Source: Thysanoteuthis rhombus (lineage: Eukaryota > Mollusca > Cephalopoda > Oegopsida > Thysanoteuthidae). Taken from it: a DNA stretch of 64,000 bases. Of this stretch, positions 4,201-54,068 are shown piece by piece (position 1 is the first letter of the stretch; every line of letters starts with the position of its first letter). The stretch spans positions 40,738,011 to 40,802,010 of the forward strand of contig OY735222.1 of the NCBI GenBank assembly GCA_963457665.1, in the 5' to 3' direction. Below the pieces are notes generated by a model. It was not told the DNA's origin. It worked only from the letters and a program-made list of their open reading frames with translations, and made no database searches. A program made the translations under genes and the position numbers.

Positions 4201-4515
4201 AGATCAGCGTTTCTTAAACTGGTAAATGATTCATCCAGAGGCGAAAGAAATTATTTAGGCGTTCAATGAAACTGCAGGTGTAAAATGAAACATGAAGTAT
4301 GGAAGAGTCGGTTCACTCATTCATGCTTTTTTTGTCTGTTCTTTATATTCTCAATTTTTTTTTGGTGCTAAACATGTACAGTAAGGAATCATTATTTAAA
4401 AAAAATTATGATTCTAAGTTCTAAAACAGTCGTTCATTTATGTGAATTAGAAATATTTTAATAACTTTTTGGTGTTACTTTATGATTTTTAGATTTTTTT
4501 AATATATTTATTAAT

Positions 4516-4743
4516 CTCAAATGGCGGTGGACTAGCCATGTTGCAAGAATGGCAGACAACTGATGGATATCACAACTCACGACATGGATCCCCTGAGATC
4601 ATATGTGCAACCGAGGCCGGCAGAATATTAGATGGAGAGACGAGCTAGACAAGTTCAGGAAGTACTGGCTTCGCGATGCCCATGATAGAGAAGTGTGGCA
4701 AATCCTGGAGAAGGTCTATGTCCAACGATGGACGTTAAAAGAC

Positions 4744-4801
<58 letters not shown>

Positions 4802-23006: not shown

Positions 23007-23395
23007 TTAAACTGAGAAGTATGCAACATGCGCATGAGAGAATCTTGTTCAATCTTACATGGAGAGATCATAAGACAGTACAGTATACAAGGAAGAAAAC
23101 GGGTGTCCGTGATATCATAGAAACTATCAAAAAACTCAAATGGCAATGGGCAGGCCATGTTGCAAGAATGAAAGACAACGGATGAACATCTCGTCTCACA
23201 ACATGGATCCCCAGAGATCACACAAGAAACCGAGGCCGACAGAACACAAGATGGAGAGATGAACTAGATGAATTCAGGAAATACTGGCTTGGCAACACCC
23301 ATGATAGAGAATTGTGGCGAATCCTGGGGAAGGTCTATGTTCAACAACGGGTGTTAAAAGACTGATGATAATGATGATGATGATGATGATTTGCG
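23007..23395 (+). mobile_element. RTE-like LINE 3' end with (GAT)n tail
   Basis: Reads KLRSMQHAHERILFNLTWRD, KTGVRDIIETIKKLKWQWAG, HVARMKDN, then the C-terminal RGRQNTRWRDELDEFRKYWL block and LGKVYVQQRVLKD, ending in a (GAT)n tail at 23363-23395. Apart from a stop after DNG and a base-level shift in the TTWIPRDH region, this is among the best-kept C termini in the window. Confidence 0.85.
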
Positions 23396-26340: not shown

Positions 26341-26493
26341 TGATTGTTATTGACCTTCTTAACAATTAAAATCGATACTCTATATTGTCCTTGGTATGGT
26401 GACCTGAGAGGAAGATTCAGTTAAGCCTCTCTAACTGGAACGTTTCCTGATAAAGTATATTTTTTTTATAGATGTGCAACACAGGGAAATTAC

Positions 26494-26494
26494 A

Positions 26495-26570
<76 letters not shown>
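26494..26570. repeat. (CA)n-(TA)n microsatellite abutting the hammerhead SINE
   Basis: CA to about 26525, then TA to 26571. The SINE end begins within a few bases. Confidence 0.95.
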
Positions 26571-26574
<4 letters not shown>

Positions 26575-26795
26575 GTCATCCACAGACAGCTGTTTCGATG
26601 TATTACATCTCTTCAGTGTGGCTATACACTTTAACCCATCCAGTACTGCGAAGCAGAATTGAAACCCTCAGGCTGGAGGCCGATATCCTACCTCTGGACT
26701 ACGGAACTGGGTGGTCAGTAAGGCTAAATTTAAGCAATATATTCATTTTACGCAGAAACTCCTCATCCACCAGAGTGCTCTATTCCTATACACAC
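26571..26795 (-). mobile_element. SINE-like element with tRNA-like head and hammerhead ribozyme
   Basis: Minus-strand order: a TCTGGTGGATGAGGAGTTTC region, then a tRNA-like segment at 26640-26710 with A box TAGTCCAGAGGTAGG and B-box-like GGTTTCAATTCTG, closed by CCAGTTC/GTACTGG (6 of 7 pairs), then a hammerhead ribozyme at 26580-26621, then TGACACAA and (TA)n. A second copy lies at 49972-50187. Both copies have (TA)n on both sides. HHR-bearing SINE-like units with polymerase III boxes are known from schistosomes; here the family is unassigned. Confidence 0.75.
26580..26621 (-). ncRNA. Type I hammerhead ribozyme (predicted)
   Basis: Read 5' to 3' on the minus strand: stem I CCACA (26617-26621); core CTGAAGA (26610-26616, fits CUGANGA); stem II GATGT/ACATC with AAT loop (26597-26609); GAAA (26593-26596); a 2-bp stem III AC/GT with loop AGCT; cleavage triplet GTC ending at 26585; stem I return TGTGG (26580-26584). 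All five stem I pairs and all five stem II pairs are Watson-Crick and every core base is intact. The very short stem III is the form known in Penelope-like elements and metazoan retrozymes, which often act as dimers. Cleavage is predicted between 26585 and 26584. Confidence 0.8.
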
Positions 26796-26985
26796 ATATG
26801 TATATATATATAGTACAAATCAGGTTTGCGATACAGCATGATATAATATGATATGATATAAAACAATGTCTGATATGTGATGGATTTATACCGTAGAGTG
26901 CACAATGCATTCAACTTCAAACTCCAAGTGTTAAGTTGGTTTAGAATAAAGCTGGAAATATAGTAGAAAGTAGATTAGCAACACA

Positions 26986-30215: not shown

Positions 30216-30251
30216 TTCATCATCATCATCATCACCACCACCACCACCACC

Positions 30252-30283
<32 letters not shown>

Positions 30284-30548
30284 TATCATCATCATCAGTC
30301 TTTTAACGTCCGTCGTTGGACATAGACCTTCCCCAGGATTTGCCACACTTCCCTATCATGGGCGTCACGGAGCCAGTACTTCCTAAACTTGTCTAGCTCG
30401 TCTCTCCATCTAACATTTTGCCGGCCTCGGTTGCGCATGTGGTCTCAGGGGATCCATGTTGTGAGTCGTGATGTCCATCGATTGTCTGCCATTCTTGCAA
30501 CATGGCCAGCCCACCGCCATTTGAGATTTTCAATGGATTCTATGATTC
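30216..30548 (-). mobile_element. RTE-like LINE 3' end, minus strand, with long tail
   Basis: The tail (complement of 30219-30298) is ATC/ACC triplets. The coding end reads on the minus strand as NRWTSRLTTWIPRDHMRNRG and the RQNVRWRDELDKFRKYWLRD block to VQRRTLKD. It is a short, well-preserved, 5'-truncated copy. ATGATTCA occurs at both edges (about 30211 and 30544) and may be a target-site duplication, although the LINE itself also has CTATGAT there. Confidence 0.85.
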
Positions 30549-33339: not shown

Positions 33340-34490
33340 TAATGGATTTATTGTACTCAATTTCTTGAATTCATTCGTACCAGATGAAATCCAACCGCAG
33401 GAACAAGCAGGCCTCAGAAAAAGTTACTCAATCATCGACCATCTCCATTCAATAAACCAACAAAAAGAGAAGGCAGCGGCCTATGGAATCCTCTTAGCTG
33501 TAGCATTTGTTAGCTATAAAAAGGTCTTCAACCAAGTGAAAGTCCCCCAAGTCAGTGACACAATAGTACAAGTTGTAGACTCTGTATATATCAGAGTACT
33601 GCAACATATATACCGATACAGCAGTTCCTTCATCAGGCTACGTAAAGACCCTTAGTGAGACAAGGTGATACCAGCTCACCAAAATTCTTCACAGTCTGCC
33701 TTGGAATGATCTTCCAAAACGTTAACTAAGAACACGAAGGAATAAAAAGACGGCGAATACCTAAGTAAACTCAGATATGTTGACGACATCGTCCTCTCCG
33801 CAAAGAACTTTCACAATCTTAAAAAAATGTTAGACGAACTAAAGGAAGAAAGCAAAAAAGTTAGCCTTCATATGGGCTTCCAAAAAACGAACGTCACGTA
33901 CAGCAAACACGTAAAGGACACAAAAAACAATGATCAAAATCGAACAAGCAGACAATGAATCTCCATGAAATCCCCCAAAGAAGAATAAATCAAAGATTCA
34001 CACTAGGTTGGCAAGCATTCGGTAGAGCGAGCTCGACTTTCAAGAACAAGAAAATCTTATCAGTTCTAAAAAGAAAGGTCTACAACCAATGCCTCCTCCC
34101 GATAGTCACCTACGGAGCTGAAACAAAGAACCTAACCAAAAGATTGATACTCAAACTGAGAACCATGCAATGTGCACACGACAGAATCGTGCTGAACATC
34201 ACTTTCAGAGATCACAAGACAGCAGAGGACATTAGAAAAAAAACAATAACAGGAATTCTAGATACCTTGGAAACCATTAAAAAAACTTGGATAGCAATTG
34301 GCTGGATGTACTTCAAGAATGTCTGACAACATCCAGACATCACAACTCACAATGTACATCCCCAGAGATCATATGCAAAAATACGGCTGACAGAAAGTAC
34401 GATGGCGTGACGAGCTAGATAAATTCAGTGAGTACTGACTCCGTGATGCCCATGATAAAAAGGTCTGGCGAATTTTGGGAAAGTAATGGG
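33340..34490 (+). mobile_element. RTE-like LINE, reverse transcriptase to C terminus
   Basis: The longest LINE coding remnant. Reads LNSFVPDEIQPQEQAGLRKS and IIDHLHSINQ (RT motif 2 region), AYGILLAVAFVSYKKVFNQV (catalytic block 1, where the expected VDYEKAFD has become VSYKKVFN), YIRVLQHIYRYSSSFIRL, VRQGDTSSPKFFT, then YVDDIVL at 33776 (the catalytic Y-x-D-D box, intact), MLDELKEESKKVSLHM, and the C-terminal GWQAFGRASSTFKNKKI block onwards. Frames shift several times. 5'-truncated inside the RT domain, and no (GAT)n tail is present. Confidence 0.9.
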
Positions 34491-49971: not shown

Positions 49972-49975
<4 letters not shown>

Positions 49976-50185
49976 GTCATCCGTAGACAGCTGTTTCGAT
50001 GTATTACATCTGTTCAGTGTGGCCATGGACATTATCAAATCCAGTACTACGAGGCAGAATTAAAACCTTCACATTGGACCCCGAGGCCGATATCCTACCT
50101 ATGGACTACGGAACTGGGTGGTCAGTAAGGCTTAATTTAAGTGATACATTCATTTTTATGCAGAAACTCTTCATCCACCAGAGTG

Positions 50186-50187
<2 letters not shown>
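49972..50187 (-). mobile_element. Hammerhead SINE-like element, copy 2 (decayed ribozyme)
   Basis: Aligns end to end with 26571-26795: the tRNA-like part (A box TAGTCCATAGGTAGGATA on the minus strand, decayed B box GGTTTTAATTCTG), the body GACTACGGAACTGGGTGGTC and CTTCATCCACCAGAGTGC. The ribozyme at 49981-50022 has core CTGAACA (the G8 position is C) and two mismatches in stem I. Stem II, GAAA and GTC are unchanged. (TA)n lies on both sides. Confidence 0.75.
49981..50022 (-). ncRNA. Hammerhead ribozyme, probably inactive copy
   Basis: Same layout as 26580-26621. The catalytic G8 is replaced by C and stem I keeps three of five pairs (CCACA with TACGG), so cleavage is unlikely. Confidence 0.7.
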
Positions 50188-50589: not shown

Positions 50590-51250
50590 AAGTCATGTGC
50601 AACAATCTCATCGAGAATAAAGGCATCAAAGCAAATCAAAGATGCAAAGCTGTGGAAAGTAGACCACTACATCTACCTAGGACAACCAATCTCTATGAAA
50701 CAAACAAGAGGAGAAGAAATCGATCAGAGAATCACCCCAGGATGGCAAGCTTTTGGCAGAGCAAGCTCAACTTTCACAAACAAAACGATCCCATTAATCC
50801 TAAAAAGAAGACTATACAACCAATGCATTCTCCCGATAGTCACTTATGGAGCTGAAACATGGAAATTAACCAAGAGACAGACCTGAAAACTGAGAAGCAT
50901 ACAGCGTGCGCATGAGAGAATCATGCTCAACCTCACATGAAAAGATCACGTGAGCACAATAAATCAGGAAGAAAATGAGGGTCTGATACATCACAGAATC
51001 TATTAGAAAACTCAAATGGCAATGGGCTGGTTATGTTGAGAGAATGACAGACAACCGATGAATATCACGACCCACAACATAGATCCCCAGAAATCACATG
51101 TAGATTTGAAGCCGACAAAATACAAGATGGAGAGATGAACTAAATTAATTCAGAAAATACTCGCTCTGAGATGCCCATTATAGAGAAATGTGGCAGATCC
51201 CAAGGAAGGTCTATGTTCAACGACGGACATTATAAGACTGGTGATGATGG
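50590..51250 (+). mobile_element. RTE-like LINE, C-terminal third
   Basis: Reads KQTRGEEIDQRITPGWQAFG, RASSTFTNKTIPLILKRRLY, NQCILPIVTYGAETWKLTKR, then AHERIMLNLT, KLKWQWAGYVERMTDNR and the C-terminal block to VQRRTL, ending with a short GATGATGG remnant of the tail. Several frame breaks. The stretch 50695-50886 is open for 63 codons, the longest clean run of this domain here. Confidence 0.85.
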
Positions 51251-51277
51251 AGGAAGCCAACTTATTGACATACCTAC

Positions 51278-53585: not shown

Positions 53586-54068
53586 TTTGAAAACAAGTCA
53601 ATCTCAATAAGCCTAAAAAGAAGTGTATACAACCAATGCATCCTCCCGATAGTCACTCATGGAGCTGAAACATGGAACCTAACCAAGAGGCAAACTGAGA
53701 AGCATGCAACGAGCACATGAGAGAATCATGCTCAACCTCACATGGGGCGATCAAAAGACAGCACGGTATATAAGGAAAAAGACGGGGGTCAAAGACATTA
53801 TACAATACATTAGAAAACTTCAAAACGGCAATGGGGAGGCCATGTTGCAAGAATAACAGACAACCGATGGACATCACGACTCACAACATGGATCTCCTGA
53901 GATCACATGCAAAACTGAGGTCGACAGAATACAAGATGGAGAGATGAACTAGACAAATTGAAAAAAATACTGGCTCCGCAACGCCCACAATAGAGAATTG
54001 TGGTGAATCCTGGGGAAGGTCCATGTACAACGACGGACGTTAAAAGACTGATGATGATGATGATGATG
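53586..54068 (+). mobile_element. RTE-like LINE 3' end with (GAT)n tail
   Basis: Starts at NKSISISLKRSVYNQCILPI, VTHGAETWNLTKRQTEKHAT-like, through the AHERIMLNLTWGD block, GGHVARITDNRWTSRLTTWI and the C-terminal RWRDELDKL block to VQRRTLKD, then (GAT)n at 54044-54068. 5'-truncated with a few frame changes. Confidence 0.85.

Follow-up and report, generated by a model that had tools for sequence, protein, structure and literature searches.

The 64,000-nucleotide stretch of DNA analysed here (the window) contains on its minus strand a short repeat with a complete type I hammerhead motif near the 3' end. We hold with moderate confidence that this repeat is a copy, shortened at its 5' end, of a retrozyme-like element that a Penelope-like reverse transcriptase mobilises at (TA)n tracts. 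We favour a retrozyme-like element because the repeat belongs to a family of ~306-nt units that occur head to tail, because the 3' ends of the copies lie just past the ribozyme and adjoin (TA)n, and because a Penelope-like element of the same genome ends alike. Judged from these sequence features, the element appears to be closer to a metazoan non-LTR retrozyme than to an ordinary tRNA SINE.

The hammerhead motif and the repeat family

An earlier note on this DNA had described a complete type I hammerhead on the minus strand, and at 26621-26580 every core letter is indeed present, in the right order. Along that strand the motif comprises CCACA (26621-26617), the core CTGAAGA (26616-26610), GATGT (26609-26605), the loop AAT, ACATC (26601-26597), GAA (26596-26594), the palindrome ACAGCTGT (26586-26593), C17 (26585) and TGTGG (26584-26580). 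CCACA and TGTGG form stem I, GATGT and ACATC form stem II (5 bp each), and stem III, with 3 bp including A15.1-U16.1 and a 2-nt loop, lies within the palindrome. The conserved core is thus surrounded by three helices, of which stem I is open, the arrangement of a type I hammerhead. Cleavage is expected between 26585 and 26584, the position that had been predicted. Stem I may be extended by an outer helix (GTGT 26629-26626 / ACAC 26576-26573; 26573-26629 in all) across an internal loop, ATAG/ATG.

Both strands of the window were scanned and contain one such motif. One strand of 70 Mb of sequence simulated with a first-order Markov model gave 28 relaxed matches and none equally good; exact-pattern scans gave 0 matches in viral contigs and 0 in prokaryote genome contigs. 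The covariance model by which the earlier note had proposed to check the motif, Rfam RF00163, does match 26578-26623 (minus) when 69 bases are searched, but the score of 23.4 bits (E 3.9e-4) is under the gathering score of 34. A search of 451 bases (26450-26900) up to E 10 returned no hammerhead family, nor did a search of the entire window at the gathering threshold. Two further RF00163 matches, in the family locus L016, score 20.1 and 19.9 bits, both under 34.

Folding of the 48-nt motif gives a structure other than the hammerhead as the most stable one (-11.3 vs -7.0 kcal/mol), the latter value being that of stems I and II alone, as the folding program is unable to draw a 2-nt stem III loop. 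The best dimer fold (-31.0 kcal/mol) is not a half-open double hammerhead (-23.7 kcal/mol) either, and fold energies of this kind would neither support nor exclude a double hammerhead. The palindrome ACAGCTGT, identical in 85 of 122 family ribozymes, could give 8 bp between two molecules. Amphibian retrozymes are reported to cleave as dimers (PMC7229834), and so are type I motifs whose helix III is weak (PMC7761336).

The repeat, previously placed at 26571-26795, corresponds to a homologous copy at 26571-26789 (minus strand), 93.3% identical to the full-length copy L005 by blastn. It covers positions 76-300 of a 300-nt reference copy and is therefore truncated at the 5' end. A (TA)n tract follows its 3' end (26526-26571; 23 copies of AT with 100% match by tandem repeat finder). 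A second, degraded copy at 49972-50186 (minus strand; 87.4% identity over 215 nt) has the core CTGAACA, with G8 changed, two mismatches in stem I and (TA)n on both sides. A protein search with an antisense frame of this second copy gave five weak, uninformative matches, and a literature search with short stretches of the sequence returned two papers, both unrelated by title. Two cephalopod SINE strings have no match in the window.

A search of the source genome (2,731,506,558 bases), which had also been proposed, revealed the element as one member of a large family. With a 225-nt query, 40 of 4,222 first-look candidates were scored and 41 matches listed. We aligned 44 copies and, after removing four divergent sequences (identity to the query ~70-81%), kept 40, including that of the window, in a sample biased toward close matches. 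Most of the sampled copies are monomers or truncated. Measured from expected cut to expected cut in three natural partial dimers, the unit is 302, 297 and 309 nt long. The unit of ~306 nt is non-coding, has a G+C content of 0.41-0.43 and is within the 150-450 bp range of retrozymes. Circular folds of units beat shuffled sequences weakly (z -2.77, -2.03 and -1.01). At L003 (~1841-2125), ~290 nt of foreign sequence with ~11-nt near-duplicate flanks lie inside an element copy, as if another repeat had inserted.

The ribozyme is the slower-changing part of the aligned copies, with substitutions in 51 of 2,357 cells vs 245 of 6,181 in the body, counts from a sample that favours close matches. The whole core is kept in 26/40 copies; in 7 of the 14 broken cores G12, at a CpG site, is changed to A. 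Covariation was examined in 122 ribozymes (108 distinct), of which 103 distinct ones passed a core filter. Pair II.2 of stem II is A-T in 86/103 and T-A in 11/103, a level reached by 0 of 1,000 shuffles, and these double changes may go back to one event or a few. At the other ribozyme pairs of the 103 copies double changes are not above chance. The outer helix of stem I reads GTCT/ACAC in most copies, with one mismatch: its second pair is formed in 3/103 copies and the other three in 85-94/103.

Head-to-tail arrays, insertion ends and a Penelope-like element

The junction between two consecutive units, CACAATAATTAATGCTCCTCTATTCAGGG, has 1,959 matches in the genome with at most two mismatches, and the backwards control has none. 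We took 90 of 100 listed junction places, all of them exact matches in the first contigs, and dropped L060, which belongs to the same array as L059, so that 89 arrays remained. For 29 arrays 3-kb loci were available; in 24 of these arrays the last unit extends to between positions 295 and 300 of the 300-nt reference, just past the ribozyme, and L056, L059 and L061 contain a further unit. The 3' end is thus constant, whereas the truncation of the first unit differs from array to array. The element ends at a fixed point, 18 nt beyond the expected cut. Constant 3' ends combined with variable 5' ends are expected of reverse transcription that begins at one internal point and may run round a circle or follow a multimer.

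Insertion sites are rich in TA repeats. A tract of TATATATA is found at most 14 nt from the 3' end in 34/40 copies, and in the remaining six the sequence there is TA-rich but imperfect; at random points of the window (TA)n is met in 2.3%. On the 5' side TATATATA is present in 22/40 copies, and two of the 18 misses are arrays with an upstream unit. Insertion beside (TA)n hides target-site duplications.

The 5' starts of the 40 copies cluster at unit positions 1-18 and 58-77. We set these clusters aside as evidence of copying for one round, as TA microhomology or a hairpin could cause them. The hairpin-like GCTCTTCCATAGGAATAGAGC adjoins positions 58-77, where many of these copies (L001-L040) start, as if reverse transcription often stopped near it. 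In the 89 arrays, 22 starts are located 1-11 nt upstream of CACAAT, with the expected cut at 9, and two at 12-27 nt; L069, counted among the 22, is really an internal deletion. This pattern is suggestive only, because CACAAT was a condition of the array sample and ends can be shifted by TA microhomology, and both could have shaped it. A subfamily with a 5-nt insertion probably accounts for the eight array starts at 57 nt, which would then be an artefact.

A search of the genome for GIY-YIG domains, with 150 of 1,161 candidates scored, identified three matches in open frames of 809 aa. One of them (L131) is a single 809-aa frame with RVT_1 (E 2.9e-14) and a GIY-YIG score of 20.7 bits, just below the whole-protein cut-off of 22.6. 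The L131 protein is matched by 1,576 of 8,000 scored proteins at ≤1e-10, and among the 120 matches listed the domains are mainly PF00078, PF28514 and PF26215, with some PF01541. A separate GIY-YIG match is located in a 1,921-aa open frame (G000:C36:11643548-11643826, minus strand).

Behind the 809-aa frame there is a minimal hammerhead-like motif, CCACTGATGATGAGAAAAAATCTCGAAACATGTATGG, which is present in L131 and L132 and altered in L133; stem I in these Penelope-like copies is 3 bp. The Penelope-like 3' end, TCTCTAAAGTACACATT, lies ~84 nt beyond the expected cut, and (TA)n comes after it. Twenty further copies (L134-L153) were represented by 3'-end stretches, which leave out the hammerhead-like motif, and 18 of them end at (TA)n; L137 has interrupted TA and L135 is unaligned. 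At the 5' end, (TA)n borders L131 but not L132, and L133 is ambiguous in this respect. In stretches of 1.4-1.5 kb at ten other GIY-YIG places, a hammerhead was found at 0/10 and a (TA)n tract at 3/10. The unit itself is missing a frame for reverse transcriptase and GIY-YIG, for which ~306 nt is too short, and could therefore only be a non-autonomous user of the Penelope-like element.

Mobilisation by this Penelope-like element is our best current guess, and we infer a cycle that includes transcription, cleavage and possible circularity of the RNA. Head-to-tail copies would be transcribed, and the RNA would be cut by the type I hammerhead that closes each unit, perhaps mainly in dimeric form, given that stem III offers a hairpin of 3 bp but an 8-nt palindrome. 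Unit-length RNA, circular or still multimeric, would then be taken by the RT/GIY-YIG protein encoded in the same genome. This protein would nick DNA at (TA)n, and reverse transcription would begin at the fixed internal ACACAATAAT, just past the ribozyme. The cDNA would end early, giving 5'-truncated copies, after about one unit, or beyond it, giving partial dimers and trimers. Against this reading count the more stable folds of monomer and dimer, the weak excess of circular folds over shuffles, the hammerhead-free stretches at ten other GIY-YIG places, the copies that lack strict (TA)n at the 5' end, and the long sequence that the unit and the Penelope-like element fail to share. We speculate, more tentatively, that the insertions carry a two-part footprint, in which self-cleaved or circular retrozyme RNA serves as template for a (TA)n-targeting Penelope-like reverse transcriptase and some 5' ends mark the cut made in vivo.

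Retrozyme-like units and a Penelope-like 809-aa open frame thus occur in one genome with similar 3' ends beside (TA)n, which makes a partnership between them testable. Among the open-licence papers screened we found no report that uses insertion sites to connect a retrozyme with a Penelope-like element. Should the 5' ends of arrays indeed mark where the ribozyme cuts, its activity in the germ line could be read from a genome sequence alone. A Penelope-like family whose 3' ends adjoin (TA)n is also of interest on its own.

Alternative origins of the repeat

The repeat could instead be a non-autonomous derivative of a Penelope-like element, such as a relic of its pseudo-LTR, that kept the hammerhead and the start of reverse transcription and passes through no ribozyme-made or circular RNA stage. 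The hammerhead-like motif and the (TA)n 3' end of the Penelope-like copies would suit such an origin, and partial tandems are usual for these elements. Mutation of the hammerhead, moreover, left insertion in vitro unchanged in the experiments of PMC11167929, where 0 reads are given as ending at the cut site; both findings count against the cycle that we favour. Nevertheless, we consider this origin rather unlikely. The unit and the three copies of the one Penelope-like family examined have no long sequence in common, and array 5' ends thin out just beyond the cut (from 22 to two in the intervals given above). ACAC-A/T-TA-like letters before (TA)n are common to the unit and the Penelope-like element, a likeness that may be due to chance.

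A conventional tRNA-derived SINE, with a pol III transcript moved by a LINE and the hammerhead as a passenger or a trimmer of RNA ends, is in our view improbable. The earlier note had read the repeat as a self-cleaving SINE with tRNA-like A and B boxes. The A box fits: TAGTCCAGAGG at 26701-26691 (minus strand) matches the consensus TRGYNNARNGG. The B-like stretch downstream, GGTTTCAATTC at 26666-26656 (the pair spanning 26656-26701), has 3 mismatches in 11. The same A-box rule is satisfied by five distinct sites across the window, the element's own among them. ARAGORN detected no tRNA gene in the window, and tRNA families searched up to E 10 gave no match for 26450-26900 or for the related copies in L016. 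With so weak a B box and tRNA models silent, a pol III tRNA SINE is not established, whereas the description as a short, dispersed, non-coding repeat with a complete type I hammerhead holds; of the note as a whole, the hammerhead was confirmed and the promoter claim proved weak.

In favour of a tRNA SINE, both boxes are slow to change among family copies (12/440 substituted cells in the A box and 9/440 in the B box), the copies are short, dispersed and 5'-truncated, and schistosome hammerhead repeats are described as carrying a tRNA (PMC4918200). Against it stand the 1,959 head-to-tail junctions and the ends past the ribozyme, and also two LINE copies of the window (4513-4799 and 30242-30528) that adjoin (TGA)n/(TCA)n and not (TA)n. 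Transcription of the element by pol III is possible, as far as the boxes indicate. In the alignment of 40 copies, gaps recur at one spot between the A and B boxes (118 gap cells in 20 columns), which may be a deletion hot spot or reflect several subfamilies.

LINE-like copies with a reverse-transcriptase-like frame are present in the window at 4513-4801, 23114-23390, 30217-30546, 50718-51266 and 53591-54068, and a LINE-like frame at 33934-34326 (plus strand). Pfam gave no match for the LINE-like window frames tested.

Unequal exchange at the DNA level in a satellite-like repeat would also yield the tandem copies that we observe, but what we see are short, dispersed arrays that keep one 3' end, vary in their 5' truncation and have (TA)n adjoining the 3' end, and we regard this origin as very improbable. 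That the hammerhead is a chance resemblance, as its Rfam score under gathering and its different lowest-energy fold might be taken to indicate, is barely credible given that nothing as good arose in 70 Mb of simulated sequence, that the core is whole in 26/40 copies and that one pair covaries.

Comparison with known hammerhead elements

A retrozyme-like element mobilised by a Penelope-like reverse transcriptase would combine features of several known systems. Minimal hammerheads of Penelope-like elements, which reportedly act as dimers, resemble the motif described here in their very short stem III with a palindrome; stem I, however, is 5 bp long here, perhaps with an outer helix, and 3 bp long in the Penelope-like copies of the same genome. 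The hammerhead SINE-like repeats of schistosomes (Sm-alpha / W elements) provide another comparison. Like the element here they are short and have a hammerhead and a claimed tRNA-like part, but a full tRNA is reported for the schistosome repeats (PMC4918200, PMC8490949), whereas tRNA models are silent on ours. The giant squid genome is likewise a large invertebrate genome with many type I hammerheads; 235 hammerhead_1 loci are listed, without a tie to an element in the sections of that report drawn on here (PMC6962438).

The Poseidon element of Anolis, a Penelope-like element, has AT-rich targets and partial tandem copies, and past its hammerhead an AC-rich stem loop serves as the internal site at which reverse transcription initiates (PMC11167929). 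Hammerhead, partial tandems, a start past the hammerhead and AT-rich targets are all features that it has in common with the repeat described here. Poseidon encodes a protein, in contrast to our unit, which is without such a frame.

The enzyme that mobilises animal retrozymes is presented as an open question in PMC7229834, with Penelope-like elements or LINEs proposed. In Nematostella, repeats with LINE-like duplications of 15 bp are described (PMC4918200), and these speak for LINEs there. The metazoan non-LTR retrozymes are among the closest systems: they too are small, non-coding, head-to-tail repeats of 150-450 bp with type I hammerheads, low G+C and a weak stem III (PMC7229834). Their expression, cleavage and circles have been demonstrated (PMC7229834), whereas for the element here they are predicted. 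Unlike the retrozymes of that account, the copies sampled here are mostly monomers or truncated, and they adjoin (TA)n as the Penelope-like element does.
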